From an uncultured Planctomycetaceae bacterium (lineage in GTDB: Bacteria > Planctomycetota > Planctomycetia > Planctomycetales > Planctomycetaceae): a stretch of DNA of 32,353 nucleotides. Where the stretch lies: the NCBI GenBank assembly GCA_913031625.1, contig CAJWGB010000040.1, positions 1 through 32,353 on the forward strand, written 5' to 3'. The notes under the pieces are model-generated. The model ran no database searches. It was not told the origin of the DNA and saw only the letters and a list, made by a program, of their open reading frames with translations. Positions 7,397 through 26,940 of the stretch are shown here, piece after piece (position 1 is the first letter of the stretch; each line of letters begins with the position of its first letter). The position numbers and the translations under genes are program-made.

Positions 7397-7954
7397 TCAG
7401 GCCTGAAATGCGTCGTTGATCTGCCGTGATGTATGGTCGTTCGGCAGTGTCAGCCCGAAGCCTTCAACGCAGGCAGTGACAGATCGGGTGGCGTGCAGAA
7501 TCGCCCGGCGCAGCTGTTCAAATACGTCCGGTGACATAACTCGTTTCAGAGCACTCACATAATCGCGCCACACGTCAAACATTCTTGGCTCCGGCCGTGC
7601 AATCAGCCATGCCCTGAGCAGCTGGTGAGCGGGTGAGTTTCGGCGAATACCAAGCTCCACCACTCTTTCCATGATTCTGCCGACCTGCAGACTGTTGGGA
7701 GAATCCTGAGACCATGCCGCCTGAGCGAGGGGAACAAGGGTCAGAAAGTACACCTTGCTTTCCGGTACTTTCATGCCAAGGATTTCCTGCATGACACGCT
7801 CTGGCAGCAGGCGAATGTCGTTGGCGACACCTTCCTGCGCATCGAACTTCTGCTCAGGCTTCAGAAACGTTCGGCGGAAGCTCGCTTCCACATGAAAACC
7901 AAAGACATCGTCCAGCGTGGTCGCAGCTGGTTGCTGCAAGGCATACGTGGTCAT
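7397..7954 (-). CDS. Conserved-looking hypothetical protein, all-helical
   Basis: Not recognised. The protein of about 185 residues is soluble, without signal peptide or membrane segment, and appears largely alpha-helical (PERVMQEIL, KVYFLTLVPLAQAAW, VGRIMERVVELGI, HQLLRAWLIARP, FEQLRRAILHATRSV). The KVYFLTLVPLAQAAW..D pattern loosely resembles TerB-like helical domains, which is only a hint. The frame can be extended to an ATG at 7981, but the ATG at 7954 is preceded by GGCGGG and an A-run at good spacing and is preferred. It is convergent with the propeller gene, with only two bases between the stops. Confidence 0.65.
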   Translation of the reverse strand: MTTYALQQPAATTLDDVFGFHVEASFRRTFLKPEQKFDAQEGVANDIRLLPERVMQEILGMKVPESKVYFLTLVPLAQAAWSQDSPNSLQVGRIMERVVELGIRRNSPAHQLLRAWLIARPEPRMFDVWRDYVSALKRVMSPDVFEQLRRAILHATRSVTACVEGFGLTLPNDHTSRQINDAFQA

Positions 7955-8348
7955 TTTTTTCCCGCCCATAAATAGATGCATACCTCACATCCCATGCGGC
8001 ACCCGACAGCCAGAAGGGGAAGCTACGTCACTGGCTGAATTCGCTCGAGCCACGAAGGACCGTGCGCACAAGGTGCTAATGAGACCATGGGTCAGCATTC
8101 CGCACCAAACATCTTTCATGCAGGAATCAGAGCTCGTTTTAGCCGGCAGACATATGGCAGGTTGCAGACTTCACGAATGGATTGATTCTGCGGGGGGAGG
8201 AAAACCGAGTAGTGCATCTGCAGATCAACAGAGAGGCAGGGGATACCCGCGTGGTGTGTCGCGCGGTGAGCGACCGAAGTCGGATTGGCCGGTACGAGCT
8301 GTAACTGGTCTGCAGACGGGGTTGTAAGAGCCACCGACGGGCTGTTGA
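7955..8348. other. Intergenic stretch without a supported gene
   Basis: About 390 bases lie between two genes that both point left. Open frames on either strand here have unbiased, low-complexity composition and no recognisable motif. No tRNA-like fold, repeat or strong terminator was seen. The right part should hold the 3' end of the 8349-9704 transcript and the promoter of the 7397-7954 gene. Confidence 0.5.
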
Positions 8349-9704
8349 TCAGGGAACCTCGATTGCAGCCCCCACATCAATCGAACGGCCACCGTTTTTC
8401 GCGTCGTCGACGGCGCCTCCATCGTCGTTAAAGTCTTCTCCAATGCTGTACACAATCAGCCGCTCGCCATCTCGCGTCAACAACAGCGCTTTGCCTGAAA
8501 AGGGATCCCTCAGTTTCTCTCGGGCTCCCTCCGGAAAATACTGTTCAGGAATTGCGTCGAGTGAGCCCGGCACCGCTCCACCGGCCAGCAAGTGACGCTT
8601 CACAGCCAGCACCACAATGAAACAGTGACGCTCAGACTCAGTTCGAGCGGCAACCACACTTGCCTGCTTAATGGCCGGCATCAGCTGCATCACTCCCATA
8701 TGGGTGATCCGACTCCATGTCGACCGAGCCATCCTCATCACGCGTGCGTTAAAGCTGTCTGCCATCTCAAACAGATCCAGCCATGACGATTCCGATGCCG
8801 CGACTGCCGCCGAAAAGAAACGCAGCATCTCTCTTTCGTTTGTTGCACGGGTGGGACCCAGCATCAACAGAGTCAGCATGTCCAGGCAGCCCGCCCGTTC
8901 ACCGATGAATCCCATACGAAGTGTCCGACGTGCGTCTGTCCGTATCAATTCCTCCTGAAGAGAGGCCATTTGCTCATCTGACCATGACGCTTTGGAAAGA
9001 AAGCTGCCGAGACTTTCACAGGCCATCGAGTGATGCGCGAACTGAATCAGACTCGATATCAGAATCGGTTCGTTACTGAATGTATGCGCCAAAGCCAGCA
9101 TTGCCTGAATGTCTCGCGCAACTCGATCGTGATCACCTCGATGTGCGGCCACCCATGCATCAAGTCGGAGCAGCCGTGTAATCTTTCTGGAGTCCTGGCA
9201 GATCGAGAGGTCTGCATTGATTCCCTTTGAAAGGTCGACTGGATAGCGAGCCACGCCTCCGACTTCTGACGCTTTCCATGCAGCGACAATCGGAGTCTGC
9301 ATCTCAGCAAGGAACTCTTCAGCCGACTCAAGCTCATTCCACTCCTCACCGGGAAGCGGGGGTCGCTCGCCCGTGCCGAGAAACGGCAGCTCTTCGGCGT
9401 GTTCTTCCAGCTTCAGTTCTTCGACCTGCTTAATCACCGGCACCCAGCGATCAGTGACGTCGGTCTGATCCTCACTCACCTGATACCATGCATCCAGTTC
9501 CTTCGAATTTGTCGGCATGCCGTTTGCGCGAAGCTCATCCTTCAGGGATGTGTTGACCCAACTGTTCCAGAACACAAATGCACCAAGCGAGGCCATAACT
9601 GCAGCAATTCCACCGAACCAGACTCGTTTCTTTCTGTAGAAAGGGCGGCTGTCGAACTCCCGATCCACCGAAGAGGTCTGTGGAGCTGTTTCAGTTTCAG
9701 ACAT
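8349..9704 (-). CDS. Single-pass membrane hypothetical protein with planctomycete-type C-terminus
   Basis: A 451-residue protein: a polar N-terminus, one membrane helix (VWFGGIAAVMASLGAFVFW, about 28-46), then a large helical domain predicted to lie outside the membrane. The last 60 residues (DPFSGKALLL, YSIGEDFNDDGG) match a pattern common in planctomycete hypothetical proteins, where a DPFSGKPL..Y.....YSIG..G.DDGG segment closes the protein. I cannot assign a function. The ATG at 9704 is the only start that keeps the membrane anchor. It is divergent to a decayed gene that begins a few bases away on the other strand. Confidence 0.75.
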   Translation of the reverse strand: MSETETAPQTSSVDREFDSRPFYRKKRVWFGGIAAVMASLGAFVFWNSWVNTSLKDELRANGMPTNSKELDAWYQVSEDQTDVTDRWVPVIKQVEELKLEEHAEELPFLGTGERPPLPGEEWNELESAEEFLAEMQTPIVAAWKASEVGGVARYPVDLSKGINADLSICQDSRKITRLLRLDAWVAAHRGDHDRVARDIQAMLALAHTFSNEPILISSLIQFAHHSMACESLGSFLSKASWSDEQMASLQEELIRTDARRTLRMGFIGERAGCLDMLTLLMLGPTRATNEREMLRFFSAAVAASESSWLDLFEMADSFNARVMRMARSTWSRITHMGVMQLMPAIKQASVVAARTESERHCFIVVLAVKRHLLAGGAVPGSLDAIPEQYFPEGAREKLRDPFSGKALLLTRDGERLIVYSIGEDFNDDGGAVDDAKNGGRSIDVGAAIEVP

Positions 9705-17593: not shown

Positions 17594-17806
17594 AAGTTCT
17601 CCTGACCTGTGCGCCTTTCGGGCACTGATTTTCAGGAGAACACCGTCCGAGGTCAATCACACATCCGCGGGATGTCACGCAGATCGCACGTCTCGTCAGG
17701 GAATTCCGGTATCGCCCTCGTGATTCGCGTTTCCGGGGTTGCCCTGAACCAACGCTCAGACCGACAATCAGAATTTCCAGTCTCCAGATGAAATCCGGGA
17801 TTGCCT

Positions 17807-17824
17807 GGCGGATACAAATCCGCC
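17807..17824. promoter_or_regulatory. Perfect dyad upstream of RNase D-like gene
   Basis: GGCGGAT and ATCCGCC form a perfect 7-bp inverted repeat around a 4-base loop (ACAA), ending 26 bases before the preferred ATG at 17851. It could be an operator or a 5'-UTR hairpin near the ribosome-binding site. It lies in the divergent region between the DUF1444 and RNase D-like genes. No T-run follows, so it is not a typical terminator. Confidence 0.35.
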
Positions 17825-17850
17825 GAAATGTAGTCCCAGCACTAATATCC

Positions 17851-19047
17851 ATGTCAGTTTTGCTTATAGAGTCTCAGGACGAATTCCTCGATGTGTGCCG
17901 ACACATTCAGGAATCCGGTCGAGTCGCCTTCGATACAGAATTCGTGTCGGAAAGCACTTACCGTCCAGCACTGGGGCTGCTGCAATTCGCGACCGAAACC
18001 AGAGCCTGTGCAGTGGATCCACTGGCCATTGAGGATCTCACGCCGTGGTGGGAAATCATGGCGGACACAGAAACGGAAGTGGTTGTCCACGGCGGTCAGG
18101 CCGAAATTCGCTTCTGCCTTCACGCCATTGGACGTCCACCTGATTGCCTCTTCGACATTCAGGTGGCCGAAGGGTTTCGAAGCCGCAGCTATCCACTCTC
18201 CTATTCAGCGATCGTCAATCGCGTCCTCAACAAACGCGTCGACGGCAGCCAGACACGAACCGACTGGACCCGCCGACCACTCTCTTCCGACCAGCTGAAG
18301 TACGCTCTGGAAGACGTTACGCACGTCCTTGAAATTCACCGCAGGCAATGCAAGTGGCTCAAGACTCACAGTCGACTCGATTGGGCGACCGACGAGATGC
18401 AGCGACTGGTCGATGACATCGCTGCTGATGACCAAACCCCTCCCTGGAAAAAGATCAGCGGAACGCACAAACTTTCTCGTCGGGAACTGGCGATCCTTCA
18501 AAAGCTGGCCGACTGGCGAGAGAGCTCCGCAGCAGAACGGAATCGACCTCTGCGTCGAGTCATGCGTGACGACCTGTTAATCGATCTCGCCCGCCGGAAA
18601 CCGCAGAGTCTGAAGCAGGCACTCGCAACACGTGACATGAATCGTCCCGAATACAAGCGACAGCTTGATCAGATCGTGGCCGTGATTCGCGACGCACTCG
18701 ACATTCCTGACAACGACCTCCCTCCCAGAGTCGGCAATCGGCGTCAGGAGTCGACGTCTGATGAACAGGTGATTTCAAAACTGCTGTCTCTGTCGCTCGC
18801 CAATCGATGTGCCGAACTGGAGATTTCACAAACTCTGGTCGCAAACAACCGAGAACTGACTGAACTCGTCAGGTATCACCGGTTCAATGACCAAAAAAAC
18901 GGAACTCCTCGGCTATTGACCGGATGGCGACAGCAACAGTTCGGGCAGTTGATGCTTGACGTCATGGACGGCCATGTAGGGTTTCGAGTTTCTCCGCCAG
19001 GCGCGGACACTCCGCTGCTGTTCCAGCGCTCAGATACCAATTCCTGA
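17851..19047 (+). CDS. RNase D-like 3'-5' exonuclease with HRDC domain
   Basis: A DEDD-type exonuclease of about 398 residues. ExoI is VAFDTEF (D28, E30). ExoII is VVVHGGQAEIRF with the conserved His at 80, but Glu85 stands where RNase D normally has Asp. ExoIII is YALEDVTHV (Y151, D155). A FDIQVAEGF segment and LSYSAIVNRVLNK also match RNase D. An HRDC-like helical domain follows (about 220-280). The family trims tRNA and other structured RNA 3' ends. The frame extends to an ATG at 17788, but those 21 extra residues are not family-like and contain the dyad described separately, so the ATG at 17851 is preferred. Confidence 0.85.
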   Translation: MSVLLIESQDEFLDVCRHIQESGRVAFDTEFVSESTYRPALGLLQFATETRACAVDPLAIEDLTPWWEIMADTETEVVVHGGQAEIRFCLHAIGRPPDCLFDIQVAEGFRSRSYPLSYSAIVNRVLNKRVDGSQTRTDWTRRPLSSDQLKYALEDVTHVLEIHRRQCKWLKTHSRLDWATDEMQRLVDDIAADDQTPPWKKISGTHKLSRRELAILQKLADWRESSAAERNRPLRRVMRDDLLIDLARRKPQSLKQALATRDMNRPEYKRQLDQIVAVIRDALDIPDNDLPPRVGNRRQESTSDEQVISKLLSLSLANRCAELEISQTLVANNRELTELVRYHRFNDQKNGTPRLLTGWRQQQFGQLMLDVMDGHVGFRVSPPGADTPLLFQRSDTNS

Positions 19048-20127: not shown

Positions 20128-20790
20128 TTAGCCGCACAAATCAAATTCAGCAGCGCACTCAACGCGAAGCGGTTCCTTCCGAACTGGATGTTCGAGATCC
20201 AGAGCGACAGCATGCAGCAGGATCCGGTGTCCCAATCCCCGGCTCGCGCCATACTTCACGTCACCGACGATCGGCATCTCACGAGAGCTTAACTGCACGC
20301 GGATCTGATGGCTCCGACCCGTTTTCGGCCGAATCTCCAGACGTGTGCCAGATTCCTCATTTCCAAGCAGTCGATAGTCCAGCACCGCTTTTTTGGCGCG
20401 ATCTGTTTTGGATGTCACACAGCGAACCGTATTGGTGGCGGAATCCTTCAGCAGCCAGTCGGTTAGAGTTGCTTCCGGATCATCAGGAGCCTTCTCGACA
20501 ATCGCATGGTACGTCTTCTGGACGGTTCCTGCCCGAAACTGATTGGAAAGTCGTCCGGCCGCCTTGCTGGTCCGAGCCAGCAACAGCACTCCCGAGACCG
20601 GCCGATCCAGTCGGTGCACAACACCCACGTAAACGTTGCCCGGTTTGTTGTATTTCTCTCGAAGATAGTTGCGCACAAGATCGACGACCGTTTCGTCACC
20701 CGTGTCGTCACCCATTGTGAGCAGACCTGCCGGCTTGTTGACGGCCAGAAGGTGGTTATCCTCATAGAGGACAGTCAGAGGTTCAGTCAC
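20128..20790 (-). CDS. RluA-family pseudouridine synthase
   Basis: A compact 220-residue pseudouridine synthase. Motif I is NKPAGLLT, the catalytic motif is VVHRLDRPVSGVLL with Asp62, and later motifs are KTYHAIVE, RPKTGRSHQIRVQL and GDVKYG. There is no N-terminal S4 domain, so it resembles the smaller RluA/RluC-like members; the target RNA cannot be named. The start is GTG (20788-20790), overlapping the end of truD by eight bases, which implies coupled translation of two uridine-isomerising enzymes. Confidence 0.9.
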   Translation of the reverse strand: MTEPLTVLYEDNHLLAVNKPAGLLTMGDDTGDETVVDLVRNYLREKYNKPGNVYVGVVHRLDRPVSGVLLLARTSKAAGRLSNQFRAGTVQKTYHAIVEKAPDDPEATLTDWLLKDSATNTVRCVTSKTDRAKKAVLDYRLLGNEESGTRLEIRPKTGRSHQIRVQLSSREMPIVGDVKYGASRGLGHRILLHAVALDLEHPVRKEPLRVECAAEFDLCG

Positions 20791-21928
20791 CGTGAAGGGA
20801 CTCCGTAAGAAACCGAATCAGCATGGTTGCGTAACACCCGCGCGGCAAATCAAAGCTGAGAGTCATTTTTTGTCGGCCCGAGTACAGGTCGTCGGTGTCC
20901 ACCACTGCCCTCAGATTCTGCGGGACGACCATCGTCTCGCGACGGGCACGCGAAAACCAGCGATCACGGGGGAAAGAAATCTTCATTTCTCCCGGTTTCA
21001 TCTCATAAGGCTGCAAAGCCGATTCATACAGCCCTTTTAGTTCCGGCGAGAGCCCCTTCGCACGTACCGATGGAAGCGGAATCAGGGCCACCGATGGAAT
21101 GTTGCCCGGAGCAAATGGCAGGACTGCGTCCGCAATTTCGATGGTCGCAGACGAGCTCCGATCCCTGAATGCCAACCCCAGCATTCGATTCCAAACGGCG
21201 CTCTGAAAGGCGGACAGGAGAATCCCTCTCAGGTCCGGGCTGACCAGTGCAAACGCCTTTTTGAATCCCGTGGGATGATCAACAAGATAAGTGACGACGC
21301 TGCGCCGGTGAGACCTGTCCAGTTGAGCTTTCAAATCATCCCAGTCGCCCCACAGATCGCGTGTCAACTGCTTTTGATTTCGTTCCTCCGCATCGTCATG
21401 AACGTTGTGCTCTGCAAAGGTCAGCCAGAGTGCGCGCTCATAGTCTCTGCGGCACCACGCCTGACAGACGTACTCCCGGGAGGGCCCTAAGGATCCGAAT
21501 CTCTGTTCATCGAAATAGTTTGGGTAACCAGTCTCAGCTGCGATCGGCAGGACAGACTGAATCTCATCGCATTCGCCCAGCGTCAGTGAGCGCACAACCA
21601 CTTCAAAGGAGTTGGCCTCAATGTCCGCTGCATCGAGATGAGAGTCTGTTCCGCCGAGAAACTCAAGGTGAATGCTTTCAGTATGCAGGTCTGCCTCCGG
21701 TCCACGGGCGATCGTCAGGTGTTGAACCGTGCAGGCATGTCGGTCCTTGAGCCCGGCGTGCCGACATTGTCTCGGCGCCAGGTTCCACTGGCGGCAGATT
21801 CTCTGGACTGCATCCGGAGTGGTAAATCCGGTCTTCGTAAGCCGATACAGCGAATACTCGCCGTGCCCCGTTTGCCGACGAATCTGTTCCGTGACTCGAA
21901 AGTCCTCCGGACGGCACTTGAGTTTCAT
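20783..21928 (-). CDS. truD: tRNA pseudouridine(13) synthase
   Basis: A 381-residue TruD. The N-terminal KCRPEDFRVTE, the catalytic HAGLKDRHACTVQHL with Asp62, ANSFEVVVR and YPNYFDEQRFGS are all characteristic of TruD, and RFLTESLHGD closes the protein. A Phe replaces nothing essential by eye; the NYFDEQRFG motif differs from the usual NYFG.QRFG by one residue. The enzyme converts U13 of tRNA. It lies 20 bases after the membrane cassette gene at 21949 and overlaps the RluA-like gene, so it may be cotranscribed with both. Confidence 0.9.
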   Translation of the reverse strand: MKLKCRPEDFRVTEQIRRQTGHGEYSLYRLTKTGFTTPDAVQRICRQWNLAPRQCRHAGLKDRHACTVQHLTIARGPEADLHTESIHLEFLGGTDSHLDAADIEANSFEVVVRSLTLGECDEIQSVLPIAAETGYPNYFDEQRFGSLGPSREYVCQAWCRRDYERALWLTFAEHNVHDDAEERNQKQLTRDLWGDWDDLKAQLDRSHRRSVVTYLVDHPTGFKKAFALVSPDLRGILLSAFQSAVWNRMLGLAFRDRSSSATIEIADAVLPFAPGNIPSVALIPLPSVRAKGLSPELKGLYESALQPYEMKPGEMKISFPRDRWFSRARRETMVVPQNLRAVVDTDDLYSGRQKMTLSFDLPRGCYATMLIRFLTESLHGD

Positions 21929-21948: not shown

Positions 21949-22467
21949 CTACTGAGCAGGCAGAAGTTCGCTGGGCATGTACACGGCATCATCGCCGATA
22001 CCGGCATCCTCCAACGCCTGTTTCAGGTCCACTTCGGCTTTGGTGCGCGAAGTCTCACGCCGCAGGATCCTGACGCGAATCCCGTTGGAATCACCCTTCG
22101 CCTGACCAGCCAGTCTGACAAGGTCAGCCATCGGTGTCGGCCGATAAACTGGTTCCTCTCCCGGCAACACGAGGAAGTATTCGGTGTCGTCGATCAGCAA
22201 TTCAACAACACCATCCTCGAGCGCTTTCTTTTCATCATCCGTCAGTCCTCCGGCTACATCCGAGTCTTCGTCCGAGTCCTGCTCATCTTTCTGCGGGTCT
22301 GAGGACACCATCAGGTTATTGCCGCCATCGTCTGAGTCCGAGTCCCCGTCTCCCGATCCAAATCCATTCATAAACATCAGCAGGATGACTGCGATCACAG
22401 CGGCAATTCCACCGGTCGCGGCTCGAGTCACATTCTTTGCGAAAGCGGGTTTCCTGGATTCAGACAT
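21949..22467 (-). CDS. Single-pass membrane protein, third gene of a TolQ/ExbD-like cassette
   Basis: A 172-residue protein with a basic N-terminus, one membrane helix (ATGGIAAVIAVILLMFM, about 17-33), an extremely acidic, Gly/Asp/Ser-rich linker (about 37-75) and a C-terminal alpha/beta domain (ELLIDDTEYFLVLPGE, PMADLVRLAGQA, IRVRILRRETSRTKAEVDL). The topology resembles the small ExbD/TolR-type partner, but the helix lacks the charged Asp that those carry, so it is more probably an accessory subunit. It follows the ExbD/MotB-like gene by 12 bases. Not assignable to a known family by eye. Confidence 0.75.
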   Translation of the reverse strand: MSESRKPAFAKNVTRAATGGIAAVIAVILLMFMNGFGSGDGDSDSDDGGNNLMVSSDPQKDEQDSDEDSDVAGGLTDDEKKALEDGVVELLIDDTEYFLVLPGEEPVYRPTPMADLVRLAGQAKGDSNGIRVRILRRETSRTKAEVDLKQALEDAGIGDDAVYMPSELLPAQ

Positions 22468-22479
22468 CGTAAGCCTGCT

Positions 22480-23298
22480 CTATTCTTCAATCGGAGTCAG
22501 TGTTGGTCGCGTGAGCCGATAGCCCATGAGAGAGTAGTCAAACCACCGGGTGTTACCGGCGTCCCGACGAAGCTGTTCCATCAACAGTGGCATGGCTTTG
22601 GTCGCTCGCTGACGCTGGCCCGCCTGAGTACTCCCCCAAGACAACAGGATAATGACAAGTGGTCTGGGTTCCGTAAATCCTTTCGTCGCCATCAGACAAC
22701 GGGAAGCAAATTCTTCTGAGGACGAGAACATGACTGCTTTCTCCTGATCACCGTCGGAGATCATCGCCTGTCCGTTGTCCTGCAGGTACACATCCCAGAT
22801 GGTGACGTGTTTCTGCATTTCATCGTACCGGCGAAGAAACTGAATCATCCGGTCGCCTCGCGAGTCCAGTTCCGAGTTCAGAGACTTGACCGCCTCCGCC
22901 AAAGCAGCAGCTTCCTCCGGGTTGCCGCTCTTCCTCAGTCGCAGAACCTCTTCCATCAACCGCCCGGACAGGTTCAGGGAGTCCGCCAGGGTTTCACCTG
23001 CCTGCTGGTGCTGTCGCAGAATCTGTTCGAACTGCTGACTGTAGGTCTCACGTTTACGATTCAGTTCCTGAGACTTTCGATCGAAGTCTGCCTGCATACT
23101 GGCAGCCTGCTCTCGGAGATCGGCTTCCTGCTTTTGTCTCGCTTCCTGCGCCTCCGCCTGCAGTGATTCTCGCTTCCTGTCCAGTTCAGCGCGTCCGTCC
23201 GCTGCGCTCTGCTGCACTTCCATGTACTGAGCGAAGATCACAATGAGCAGGAGGTCCACGAGTGGAGCAAGCTGAAATGTGAGCCGACGCTGAGTCAT
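22480..23298 (-). CDS. ExbD/MotB-like protein with long coiled coil
   Basis: A 272-residue protein. The N-terminal helix LAPLVDLLLIVIFAQYMEVQ places Asp15 in the membrane, the hallmark of ExbD/TolR/MotB proton-channel subunits. It is followed by a long Gln/Glu/Arg-rich coiled coil (about 28-150) and a globular C-terminal domain (KHVTIWDVYLQD, PLVIILLSWGS, WFDYSLMGYRL). Such proteins are energised by a TolQ/MotA partner and act on the envelope. The ATG overlaps the upstream TolQ-like stop by four bases. The C-terminal domain is not the OmpA-like peptidoglycan-binding domain, as far as motifs show. Confidence 0.75.
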   Translation of the reverse strand: MTQRRLTFQLAPLVDLLLIVIFAQYMEVQQSAADGRAELDRKRESLQAEAQEARQKQEADLREQAASMQADFDRKSQELNRKRETYSQQFEQILRQHQQAGETLADSLNLSGRLMEEVLRLRKSGNPEEAAALAEAVKSLNSELDSRGDRMIQFLRRYDEMQKHVTIWDVYLQDNGQAMISDGDQEKAVMFSSSEEFASRCLMATKGFTEPRPLVIILLSWGSTQAGQRQRATKAMPLLMEQLRRDAGNTRWFDYSLMGYRLTRPTLTPIEE

Positions 23299-24059
23299 GA
23301 CACTTCCGCCTGCTGTGTCTGCTGAGCTTCCGTCGTTTCCTCAGTTTCCGAGACTGCAGAGGCCTCAGGCGAAGAAACACGAGCGCCAGGGACAGCTGTC
23401 ATCGCCAGTTCACGTTTAGCTCGAGCAACAACATCACGTACATGAGATCGACTCTGAGTGAGACGAGAAAAGCGAGTCTCGAGAAGGCTGTTGACGAACA
23501 TCAGCAGAATGGCTGCAGCCAGTCCACAGAACGTGGACCACACAGCGTCACCAAAGCGAGTCACGATCCCGGACATCGTAGCAGCTGCCTCTGCCGTCTT
23601 AGACGACTGCATTGCAGAACCAATCGCGAGAATCGTTCCCAGGACACCTGCCAACGGGTAGGCCTCAATCATGACTCGCGCGACATTACGTGCTGTTTCG
23701 AACGAGAGCGAATCAAGATAACTGCGACGTTCATCGAGAATGTGCATACGACGCAAACACTCCGCGCGATCTTCTGTTCGCGTTGGATCATTCAGCACAT
23801 CATTGACGTCTTCCACGAATGCGTCGATCTGATTTGTCAGCGGCGCTGCTCTTCCCAACACACTGCGGTGTTTTAAGCCTCGCGTAAAGTCATCGAGGCT
23901 TACGGCAATTGTTTTCAGGTCGCGGCGATACCAGATCACCAGCACCAGAAAGAACAGTAAGTGAATACCGGCTGCTCCCAGAATAATGGGGGCCGTCAGA
24001 CTGGAGATTTGCTCCAGAATCGGACCGAGGTCTTTGGTAATGAAAGACTGAGACAGCAC
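23295..24059 (-). CDS. TolQ/ExbB/MotA-like membrane protein
   Basis: A 254-residue protein with three membrane helices: about 22-44, 131-150 and 172-192. The second contains AYPLAGVLGTILAIGSAM, the P..G.LGT hallmark of MotA/TolQ/ExbB channels, and the third begins FGDAVWSTFCGLAAAILL, matching the conserved A..T..GL.AAI segment. A cytoplasmic loop of about 85 residues separates helices 1 and 2, and the C-terminal tail is Thr/Glu/Gln-rich. The start is GTG, with two inverted repeats in the 50 bases upstream. It is the first gene of a leftward cassette and should form the stator ring around the ExbD-like helix. Confidence 0.8.
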   Translation of the reverse strand: MLSQSFITKDLGPILEQISSLTAPIILGAAGIHLLFFLVLVIWYRRDLKTIAVSLDDFTRGLKHRSVLGRAAPLTNQIDAFVEDVNDVLNDPTRTEDRAECLRRMHILDERRSYLDSLSFETARNVARVMIEAYPLAGVLGTILAIGSAMQSSKTAEAAATMSGIVTRFGDAVWSTFCGLAAAILLMFVNSLLETRFSRLTQSRSHVRDVVARAKRELAMTAVPGARVSSPEASAVSETEETTEAQQTQQAEVS

Positions 24060-24516: not shown

Positions 24517-25455
24517 ATGCCACGTTCGTCGAAAAGATCAAGCCGCAAACGTCAGTCGCTGCATCAGCGAATGGTCGGCTGGATGTTTCGTCCCACGCGG
24601 CTGTCTGGTGTGGCGATGCTGCTGATGGCATGGCTCTGCTGGCCCATCCTGAAAGGGCAGCTGCCTGATCTCGAGGATCGTGAAGAGTACCGGGTCACTG
24701 CAGCTCAGGTGACCGTCACACCACCTCCGCGATGGGTGCCGGAAAATGTTGCAGAGAAAGTCTTTGACCGGGCCGGGTTTGATGAATCACTCTCGCTGCT
24801 CGATCCACGGCTGAATGAGAAAGTAGCGGTCGCGTTTCATACATGGCCATGGGTTGAGCAGCTGGTGCAGGTTCGGCGAACATGGCCAGCCGGAGTTTAC
24901 GTGGAAGTCGTTTATCGCCGACCTGTCGCAATGGTGGAAGTCGTTGGTCGCGGCTATCTGCCCGTCGATCGTCATGGTCATCTGCTCCCGGAGAAGGACT
25001 TCAGCCCCGCAGACATCGACCGTTATCCACTGATCGGACGAATCACCACAGTTCCAACCGGATATCAGGGAGAATCCTGGGGAGATCCGGCAGTTGCGGG
25101 AGCCGCCCAACTGGCCGCTCTGCTGACTGAAGAACACGACGGACGATCTCTCTGGCAGTCTTTTCAACTCAAACGAATTCTGGCTCCGCGCCGACTGTCG
25201 GTTGCATCCCGACCAGATCAGCTGCAATTCGAAATTGAGACCAACGGTGGATCGCGAATCGTCTGGGGCCGCCCCCCCGGTACCCAGCATCCCGGTGAGC
25301 TTTCGGTCGAGAAAAAGATCGCTCGTCTCGCCGAATATCAGCGCCAATACGATGGATTCGACAGTGGCCCGGCAGCTGTCAGCATCGACATTCGAGACTG
25401 GCAGGGCACTCGCCGCAGCCTGCTGGCGACCGAAGATAAACGACCGCGGCACTAA
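24517..25455 (+). CDS. FtsQ/DivIB-like POTRA protein
   Basis: A 312-residue bitopic membrane protein: a highly basic cytoplasmic tail (RSSKRSSRKR), one membrane helix (about 30-46), then a POTRA-like domain. The pattern HTWPWVEQLVQVRRTWPAGVYVEV followed by YRRPVAMVE and GYLPVDRHGHLLP matches FtsQ, where W..V..V.V.R.WP..L.V.V.E..P.A...... is followed by a VD..G.....P strand. The C-terminal half has LQFEIETNGGSRIVWGRP, like the beta domain of FtsQ, and ends with a dRDW segment. FtsQ links divisome proteins in FtsZ-using bacteria. Function here is unknown because planctomycetes lack FtsZ. No strong ribosome-binding site precedes the ATG. Confidence 0.7.
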   Translation: MPRSSKRSSRKRQSLHQRMVGWMFRPTRLSGVAMLLMAWLCWPILKGQLPDLEDREEYRVTAAQVTVTPPPRWVPENVAEKVFDRAGFDESLSLLDPRLNEKVAVAFHTWPWVEQLVQVRRTWPAGVYVEVVYRRPVAMVEVVGRGYLPVDRHGHLLPEKDFSPADIDRYPLIGRITTVPTGYQGESWGDPAVAGAAQLAALLTEEHDGRSLWQSFQLKRILAPRRLSVASRPDQLQFEIETNGGSRIVWGRPPGTQHPGELSVEKKIARLAEYQRQYDGFDSGPAAVSIDIRDWQGTRRSLLATEDKRPRH

Positions 25456-25635: not shown

Positions 25636-26940
25636 TCACGACGTAGCGGGCCACTCAGGATGCTTGGCCAGTTCTTCAATGTCCGTCGCGGCAACGATTA
25701 CCTGAGCCAGATCCGAAAGCGAGGCCTCCGCCTCAAAACCATTAGCAACTGCTCTTCGAACATGCGGCTGCAGATTCCAGTCTGGCGACCGGACTCCATC
25801 ATTCAGCATGCGCAAGACTTCGTTCAGGCATTTGCCACGTTCGGCCACGGGACCATGAACGTACCGACTGAATGCCAGCTCGATCTCCAGTTCGAGATCA
25901 TCATGGTCCACCACGTTCGCACGATCGATCAACTCCATGCCGCGATCGTAATTGCCCTGGCAAAGCAGGAGCTGTCCGTAGTTACCAAAGTAACTGGCGG
26001 TGTCCGCGCCCAGTTCCCCGGCACGCTCAAAAAGCTCACCTGCCCGCTCGACGTCATCTCGAGCTGAATAAAGAAAGCCGGCAAAGTTGATCATGTTGTT
26101 AGAGTGATCGGGCCCGGCCTTCAGAGCGCGCTCATACATTTCTTCTGCCCGACCAGAGTCCTGGCGTTCTTTATGATAGAACACAGCAAAGTTTCCAAGG
26201 ATACTGGCGTTATTCGGATCATTTGCGACTGACGCATTCAGCAGTTCCTCTGCGCGATCGAAGTTCTGGCGATCCTGAATCTGAAACAGCGCATACTCAC
26301 AAAGAAGTTCCGCGTCGGCGGGATCGACATCCAGTGCCCGATCGTAGAACTCTTCCGCCCGGTCCGTGTCATCTCTGATGTGACGCAAAAACCGAGCGAA
26401 TCGGAACAAAGTCGTGAAGTCATTCGGAGAAATCTCAATGGCTGATTCATACAACGACTCAGCTCGATCCCAGTCCATCCCCTCAAGCGTATGAAACCAT
26501 GCAAACCGGGAATGCACCTCCCCAACGTTGGGCGAAAGCTCCAACGCGCGTTCGTAAAGGGACTCTGCTTCGTCGGTCGCATCCTGAATACACCTGAGGG
26601 TGCCATAACAGGCAACAACGAGACCGTTCTCCGGATCCGATTCCATCGCTCGCCGGAGTAATTCCCCCGCCCGCTCACGATCATCCGATACGCTCATCAA
26701 CAGATCAGCGAAGTCGCACAGCACATCTGCGTTGTCAGGCTGAATCACAATTGCGCGTTCGTACATCTGCAACGCGCGATCAAAGTTTTCGATCGACCTC
26801 AGGAATCCGGCATAATCCGACAGCAGTTCCGAATTCTCCGGATCCTTCCGCAACAACTCCCGAAATAACTGATCCACCTGAGCAGGCTCAAGCGGACGGT
26901 CGGGTGGTGGTGAAGAGGTCTGTCTGGATGTCCGGTACAT
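25636..26940 (-). CDS. TPR-repeat protein
   Basis: A 434-residue protein made mostly of about nine tandem helical repeats of 35-37 residues. Each unit follows the pattern NFA.FL....D..RAEELYERAL...P.(D/N), e.g. DRALQMYERAIVIQPDNADV, DRAEELLNASVANDPNNASI and GRAEEMYERALKAGPDHSNN. The repeats run from about residue 15 to 350. The remainder is a helical cap ending HPEWPATS. There is no signal peptide or membrane segment, so it is cytoplasmic. TPR arrays bind protein partners; the partner is unknown. It is convergent with the FtsQ-like gene. Confidence 0.85.
   Translation of the reverse strand: MYRTSRQTSSPPPDRPLEPAQVDQLFRELLRKDPENSELLSDYAGFLRSIENFDRALQMYERAIVIQPDNADVLCDFADLLMSVSDDRERAGELLRRAMESDPENGLVVACYGTLRCIQDATDEAESLYERALELSPNVGEVHSRFAWFHTLEGMDWDRAESLYESAIEISPNDFTTLFRFARFLRHIRDDTDRAEEFYDRALDVDPADAELLCEYALFQIQDRQNFDRAEELLNASVANDPNNASILGNFAVFYHKERQDSGRAEEMYERALKAGPDHSNNMINFAGFLYSARDDVERAGELFERAGELGADTASYFGNYGQLLLCQGNYDRGMELIDRANVVDHDDLELEIELAFSRYVHGPVAERGKCLNEVLRMLNDGVRSPDWNLQPHVRRAVANGFEAEASLSDLAQVIVAATDIEELAKHPEWPATS

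Follow-up and report, generated by a model that had tools for sequence, protein, structure and literature searches.

The stretch of DNA analyzed here, hereafter the window, comprises 32,353 nucleotides of contig CAJWGB010000040.1 (assembly GCA_913031625.1) from an uncultured Planctomycetaceae bacterium, and we characterized in it a trio of minus-strand open reading frames (ORFs) coding for a ring subunit (P0001), an axle subunit (P0002), and a third subunit (P0003) of a putative proton-driven envelope system. Reading the ORFs from the sequence reproduced the coordinates of an earlier note on this DNA and bore out its description of three tightly linked genes, with a 4-base overlap between the first two and a gap of 12 bases between the genes for P0002 and P0003 (Table 1).

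Table 1. Features of the window, numbered from its first letter
Feature	Position	Strand	Description
P0001, ring subunit, ExbB/TolQ-type	23295-24059	-	254 amino acids, GTG start; PF01618 match
P0002, axle subunit	22480-23298	-	272 amino acids; putative ExbD-type transmembrane helix with Asp15, stalk, end domain (residues 165-260)
P0003, third subunit	21949-22467	-	172 amino acids; N-terminal transmembrane segment, Gly-rich stretch, disordered linker, end domain (residues ~84-169)
Overlap of ring stop and axle start codons, 4 bases	23295-23298	-	Read from the sequence
Codon of P0001 His33	23961-23963		In the first transmembrane segment
FtsQ/DivIB-like protein	24517-25455	+	Transcribed away from the trio
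TPR protein	25636-26940	-	434 amino acids; upstream of the trio beyond the FtsQ-like gene, same strand as the trio
TruD-type and RluA-type pseudouridine synthase genes	20128-21928	-	After the trio, same strand
Ribonuclease D-like gene	17788-19047		About 3 kb past the trio

The trio is a real conserved unit, and its arrangement goes beyond chance. Scanning a single genome per species with a P0002 alignment yielded 76 further loci, of which 75 are labeled as planctomycete and one only as "bacterium"; the scan used two peptide patterns from the axle membrane helix, and absence elsewhere cannot be concluded from it. Ring and axle genes adjoin in all 77 loci (the window and these 76), with exactly the same 4-base overlap in 62 of them. 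The third gene follows the axle gene at -92 to +535 bases in 52 loci. In the remaining 25 loci, the third-gene profile finds no matching ORF at an E value of ≤1e-3; the contig stops at most 205 bases from the axle gene in three of these (L103, L161, and L164).

The product of the first gene had been called TolQ/ExbB/MotA-like, and our analysis agrees with this. P0001 matched PF01618 in the Pfam scan (E=4.1e-10; 39.9 bits, cut-off 22.9), being the weakest of the eight PF01618 matches of the genome, and its hydropathy profile contains three membrane segments (best windows, residues 25 to 43, 129 to 147, and 175 to 193). Three membrane helices are the number found in ExbB and TolQ, whereas MotA has four. 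Two residues, Thr142 in the second segment and Thr176 in the third, are threonine in all 69 family rows of the ring alignment, from which 8 of the 76 loci were left out (ring ORFs of at least 280 amino acids or cut short), and the two columns are threonine in 19 of 19 rows of an alignment that includes two out-of-family members. A profile search of the Protein Data Bank (PDB) sequences found ExbB weakly for P0001, with a best E value of 0.0044. An excerpt of PMC12215075 describes Thr145 and Thr178 of TolQ as close to the axle Asp in the TolQR motor. The invariant Thr142 and Thr176 of P0001, together with Asp15 of P0002, would be counterparts of the residues brought close there, which supports reading the pair as a motor.

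A separate observation concerns His33 in the first membrane segment of P0001, which is histidine in 69 of 69 family rows and is followed seven residues later by an equally invariant leucine (69/69). This spacing is that of the His-Leu core in the SHLS motif of TonB and TolA, here located inside the ring protein; the flanking serines of the motif are not conserved. In the wider alignment the column holds histidine in 17 of 19 rows and is not kept in two deep relatives. Of the seven other ring paralogues in the genome, four were inspected by eye, and none showed such a histidine in its first membrane segment.

P0002 has one membrane segment by hydropathy, and its Asp15 is aspartate in 71 of 71 aligned family rows, as well as in 16 of 16 rows of an alignment including five out-of-family members. 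The family alignment holds the window and 70 of the 76 loci, six with axle ORFs outside 236 to 309 amino acids being omitted, and lengths across the 71 rows kept are 243 to 304 amino acids. AlphaFold2, run here on single chains of P0002 and P0003, modeled P0002 with a mean predicted local distance difference test (pLDDT) value of 87.9, as an unbroken helix from residue 10 to 107 followed by more helices up to residue 164; the pLDDT drops to 64 to 86 around residues 101 to 160. The membrane Asp that the earlier note ascribed to the second protein is confirmed, and its long coiled coil has a counterpart in the predicted helix. We compared P0002 with a profile of 18 ExbD proteins from the sampled genomes: the N terminus scored 25.5 (probability, 85%), the highest of 40 column shuffles reaching 17.7 and the reversed control 9.8, and the whole-length comparison (E=1.1e-4) aligned the N terminus only. 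Judged by sequence, the N terminus of P0002 is an ExbD-type membrane helix carrying the putative channel Asp.

The predicted end domain of P0002 consists of three strands, a helix, a strand, a helix, and a strand. Since this order of elements is that of the ExbD/TolR fold, and in view of the fold and profile comparisons, the domain is probably a divergent ExbD/TolR relative, with weaker evidence than for the corresponding domain of P0003; its C-terminal profile scored 19.7 with the ExbD profile, the best of 40 shuffles reaching 15.2. Scans of P0002 with Pfam, NCBIfam, PADLOC, and PHROGs returned rows of coiled-coil type and no useful family match. One of them, DUF2935 (24.8 bits, cut-off 24.4, residues 62 to 167), was read as coiled-coil similarity and rejected. 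No PF02472 row was obtained for P0002 up to E=10 in Pfam, where filters remove most rows above 0.1, no OmpA-like row was found up to E=10 for P0002 or P0003, and searches of PDB sequences with the profiles of both proteins gave nothing usable. The C-terminal domain of the second protein had been called unfamiliar, and a standard TolR, MotB, or OmpA-like domain had been named as the finding that would tell against a distinct system. The domain indeed escapes PF02472, but it is probably not of a new kind, and what partly answers to a standard domain does so at the level of the fold only.

These results also bear on the idea that the trio is simply one more ordinary ExbBD set serving outer-membrane uptake (Ton). 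The genome is rich in such genes, with eleven PF02472 matches besides the eight of PF01618, which would favor this explanation, but none of the eleven lies on the contig of the trio, and the single TonB_C match that the genome yielded adjoins ExbB and ExbD on another contig (C91), away from the trio. Besides, P0002 carries a long stalk and escapes the PF02472 profile, and the trio has no further conserved neighbor. We consider an ordinary ExbBD set improbable. Likewise, the only PF00691 (OmpA-like) match found in the genome lies away from the trio (C117); TolB and TolA were not searched for. The statement that no TonB, Pal, or OmpA-like gene is nearby therefore holds for the locus, but the genome does have a TonB_C protein together with ExbB and ExbD elsewhere.

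P0003 has a single membrane segment by hydropathy. Its AlphaFold2 model (mean pLDDT, 79.7) shows the anchor and linker at low confidence and residues 81 to 170 at 96 to 98, the latter forming an end domain with nearly the same order of elements as that of P0002. Foldseek placed ExbD 8pek and TolR 5by4 at ranks 1 and 2 (probability, 1.00; E=5.2e-3). VIA-align matched P0003 to TolR 5by4 with a Z score of 8.1 and a root mean square deviation of 3.0 over 79 residues, and its top six rows were all ExbD/TolR (Z, 8.1 to 6.5), the first unrelated row having a Z score of 5.5. The whole-length comparison of P0003 with the ExbD profile gave E=0.0021. On the predicted model, the end domain of P0003 has the ExbD/TolR fold. 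When the end-domain profiles of P0002 and P0003 were compared directly, the score was 12.8, with shuffles up to 15.9, and no hint of similarity emerged, so we make no claim that one copies the other. P0003 obtained no row in Pfam, NCBIfam, or PADLOC, and one weak match of unknown function in PHROGs (E=0.098).

Outside the end domain, P0003 differs from an axle protein. Its N terminus did not match the ExbD N terminus (score, 7.2; shuffles up to 9.7), and it is therefore not an ExbD-type axle. Its membrane segment has no conserved acidic residue, any Asp or Glu being found in 14 of 67 rows, and histidine occurs in 1 of the 67; these rows were drawn from two alignments with shared members. After the segment come 14 residues rich in Gly (on average 5.1 Gly and at least 1; background frequency, 0.106 per residue) and a linker with 16 Asp or Glu in residues 35 to 83. 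The description of a single-pass third protein with a strongly acidic linker thus fits P0003 itself, but the acidity is weaker in its relatives: the net acidic fraction of the whole protein is 0.10 in P0003 and 0.03 on average (50 rows). From the third-protein alignment, 2 of 51 ORFs were left out, being of at least 210 amino acids.

We weighed two other roles for P0003 on this evidence. In one, P0002 and P0003 would form a mixed axle inside the ring, an arrangement left open for AglQ/AglS of Myxococcus. Both end domains look ExbD/TolR-like, and AglRQ/S likewise consists of one ring gene and two axle genes, according to an excerpt of PMC9389320. This role is nevertheless unlikely, in light of the missing acidic residue, the N-terminal mismatch, and the third gene lying away from the ring/axle pair in 21 of 48 genomes (see below). 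In the other, P0003 would be a force transducer of TonB/TolA/vWA type located on the outside of the ring and pulling an outer-membrane or cell-wall partner. Its layout of helix, linker, and globule is that of TonB/TolA and the vWA transducers, and its gene is often separate, as tonB is, so far as excerpts of PMC12204202 describe them. Against this stand the near absence of the histidine of the SHLS motif that docks TonB/TolA and an end domain whose fold is ExbD/TolR-like, with no TonB or TolA domain among the fold matches listed; the transducer role is thus conceivable, although doubtful. Lacking a channel Asp, an ExbD-type helix, and the TonB/TolA histidine, P0003 would qualify neither as a second axle of the AglQ/S sort nor as a TonB.

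Conservation of the trio as a set, which had been put forward as a test, was borne out within the family of the window and in six further families. A single-sequence search with P0002 against 58 related genomes matched 34, comprising 33 of the 36 genomes of the family (genus included) and G054; the latter match covers mainly the coiled part and was not accepted. We then used a class-wide sample of 198 genomes, 51 in the family and 147 outside it, with E-value thresholds of ≤1e-12 for the ring and ≤0.001 for the axle and third proteins. Ring, axle, and third genes were each found in 49 of the 51 family genomes, and all three together in 48, some of these genomes having also supplied sequences to the search profiles; one genome (G025) had none of the three. 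Of the 48 genomes, 27 have the third gene at most 428 bases from the axle match and 21 have it elsewhere, either at a distance of 13 kb to 6.6 Mb on the contig of the axle (12 genomes) or on another contig (9 genomes). Retention of the third gene despite lost linkage fits a functional tie without proving one. The neighbors of the lone third genes were uninformative in the three such loci looked at.

Such a distribution has a bearing on whether the trio could be a defense system of the Zorya kind. Zorya systems have a MotA/MotB-type motor. They are also named as more distantly related in the available part of PMC12505986. However, the trio is near-universal in the family instead of patchy, no conserved effector gene stands beside it, and no Zor model was among the PADLOC matches up to E=10, making this explanation extremely improbable.

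Beyond the family, deep-profile searches covered the phylum Planctomycetota. Of the 147 class genomes outside the family, one (G043) had a significant axle match, and weak third-gene matches were seen in eight further out-of-family genomes of the class sample. Among 392 genomes sampled across the phylum, the axle profile matched four out-of-family genomes, all with the three-gene order. Ring-, axle-, and third-like genes occur in the same order in G043 (f4), G234 (f31), G225 (f22), G288 (f70), and G504 (f92). A sixth family is represented by G256 (f51), found at E=1.3e-5 by a third-protein profile not containing it, in which the third gene directly follows an axle gene, itself overlapping by 4 bases with the ring gene before it (E=4.1e-8); rows of that search weaker than 1e-4 were set aside. 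The other ring genes matched the ring profile with E values of 2.2e-8 (G043), 1.7e-16 (G234), 3.5e-20 (G504), 1.4e-6 (G225), and 2.5e-5 (G288). When third proteins were compared with profiles lacking them, G234, G225, and G504 gave E values of 9.5e-8, 5.6e-8, and 4.6e-5, respectively, within small ORF sets, whereas assignment rested mainly on position and layout in G043, where E was 0.033, and in G288, whose third protein matched only once it had been added to the profile.

Five of the six out-of-family rings were scanned with PF01618, of which three pass at 27.5 to 28.7 bits and two fail (16.0 and 15.4), and of three out-of-family axles scanned with PF02472, those of loci L213 (14.0 bits) and L291 (21.6 bits) fall below the cut-off of 25.4 and that of L237 has no match. 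Axle lengths span 191 to 500 residues across the six loci, the variation being mainly in the coiled part. Matches in G514 and G538 scored better as ordinary ExbD and were rejected; those in G261, G221, G239, and G231, with other weak axle rows, match mainly in the coiled part and were likewise not accepted, nor was the hit in G312. Separately, in G337 (locus L292, 99-3434, minus strand) a 428-residue coiled-coil axle-like protein is encoded directly after a protein with a caspase domain (PF00656) and TPR, perhaps a different use of the axle.

Taking these results together, we propose, with a probability of roughly 60%, that the trio is a distinct subtype of the MotA/TolQ/ExbB-type proton-driven motors, having a stalked axle and a tethered third partner. 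The gene architecture, conservation, channel residues, predicted folds, and co-occurrence are shown by the results above, and belonging to this family lends the motor part good support. Related ring/axle motors are proton-driven and of 5:2 composition, as stated in an excerpt of PMC9389320, and by analogy with this family we infer a 5:2 ring-and-axle assembly, proton drive, and rotation for P0001 and P0002. In such an assembly, P0001 would form the membrane ring and P0002 the axle, with the Asp15 helix seated inside the ring, where Asp15 and the conserved ring threonines would form a proton path. The helical stalk of P0002 would lift its small end domain off the membrane into the periplasm. 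P0003 would be a dedicated third subunit with its own membrane anchor, a flexible linker, and an ExbD/TolR-fold domain, most likely docking on the P0002 end domain or on a shared envelope target and passing on or regulating the motor force; this partner role and the envelope target are conjectural. The claim of a distinct proton-powered envelope system accordingly stands insofar as the cassette is conserved, differs from known systems by sequence and gene content, and probably acts in the envelope, but not insofar as it implied a new kind of end domain.

Several results weigh against this reading. The match of the P0002 end domain to ExbD 8p9r (Z, 6.5; root mean square deviation, 2.8; 71 residues) is tied with unrelated folds, RNase H-like and ribosomal, under a top row of Z 7.1, and best Z scores of 7 to 8 are common in models without a clear match, as VIA-align itself cautions. 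Foldseek returned no match at E≤0.001 for the model of P0002 or P0003. The C terminus of P0003 scored 22.4 with the ExbD profile, against 19.7 for the best shuffle, and its reversed control reached 25.2; the reversed score being above the real one, sequence kinship of this domain with ExbD is not significant. Two family genomes have incomplete sets, the third gene only in G142 and ring and axle only in G206, and co-occurrence within one family may only mark three core genes. The axle of G256 was not picked up by the axle search, and its score with the axle profile (22.4 bits) is slightly below that with the profile of ordinary ExbD (25.3 bits). Finally, in G337 no ring match accompanies the axle-like gene within the 6 kb read; the contig stops shortly after that gene, leaving no sequence in which to seek a third one.

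The earlier note had also set the cassette apart from Tol-Pal, ExbBD-TonB, and flagellar stators, and the separation, by sequence and gene content, extends to AglRQS and Zorya. ExbB/ExbD and TolQ/TolR share with the trio a three-segment PF01618 ring, a single-pass axle with one channel-type Asp, the Thr pair, and an ExbD/TolR-like periplasmic fold, predicted for P0003 and probable for P0002. The trio departs from them in the long helical stalk of its axle, in the lack of a PF02472 match for P0002, in a third protein that has the predicted ExbD/TolR fold and no Asp, and in the absence of a TonB or Pal gene at the locus. MotA/MotB has the same ring-and-axle logic with an Asp in the axle helix, but the trio has a ring of three helices per subunit and no OmpA-like cell-wall domain was found in it. 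AglR-AglQ-AglS of Myxococcus also combines one ring gene with two proteins having TolR-like end domains; AglQ and AglS both carry an Asp, according to the same excerpt of PMC9389320, whereas P0003 has none and is often unlinked. As excerpts of PMC12204202 describe, the vWA transducers beside TolQR-like genes of the PVC group, planctomycetes included, are helix-linker-globule proteins accompanying a proton motor, but the P0003 end domain is ExbD/TolR-like, the SHLS histidine is missing from its membrane segment, and the trio axle is stalked. A study of MotAB relatives groups ExbBD, TolQR, and AglRS as "generic ion transporters" of very diverse structure, in the part available (PMC12505986), and the trio would be a variant within this broad kind.

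A bolder form of the proposal is that the trio is an ancient planctomycete envelope motor transmitting force along a long coiled stalk to an ExbD/TolR-fold partner that has an anchor of its own and no proton site; we regard this as speculative and rather unlikely. If true, it would add a route for coupling a proton motor to the envelope besides TonB/TolA, vWA, MotB, and GldM, and the motor might perhaps assume a function like that of Tol-Pal where the cell divides or buds. Flagella, gliding, nutrient import, and maintenance of the outer membrane are all driven by proton motors of this superfamily. Planctomycetes are unusual in their envelopes and division; one of their families carries the trio almost universally, and distant families of the phylum have it too. 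The trio offers a defined three-gene set for knock-out in planctomycete laboratory strains and a natural test case of a stalked axle working with an Asp-less ExbD-fold partner. No description of it was found in the literature searched, and none of the libraries scanned names it; more proton motors of the superfamily remain undiscovered, according to the available text of a recent study (PMC12204202).

Examination of the gene neighborhood across planctomycetes confirmed that the trio order recurs, but no further gene is widely conserved. Apart from ring, axle, third, and antisense ORFs, the widest conserved neighbor cluster, a MetW-type methyltransferase, occurs in 14 of the 77 loci, such counts being lower bounds due to flanks cut short in many loci. 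The MetW-type gene shares the strand of the axle gene and precedes it by about 1.5 kb (e.g., L148 4312-5028 and L160 4560-5213), and the L148 protein matches PF07021 at E=2e-61.

In the window itself, the FtsQ/DivIB-like protein scores below threshold with both PF03799 (15.3 bits, cut-off 21) and the FtsQ-type POTRA model (12.2 bits, cut-off 23), and, outside the window, a relative stands close to the trio in just one of 34 loci (L051) and one of 76 (L162). Relatives of the TruD-type (PF01142) and RluA-type (PF00849) genes are near the trio in three and four other loci of the 76, respectively, and in same-genus loci only in the set of 34; in L026 the TruD-like match is divided over two ORFs. 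For the TPR protein, just one of the 76 other loci (L094) has a relative close to the trio, and TPR genes also accompany vWA motor clusters, according to an excerpt of PMC12204202. The ribonuclease D-like gene of the window has no relative in the other 76 loci, and in L237 a ribonuclease D-like gene with 3'-5' exonuclease and HRDC domains (7492-8466) lies just after the trio.

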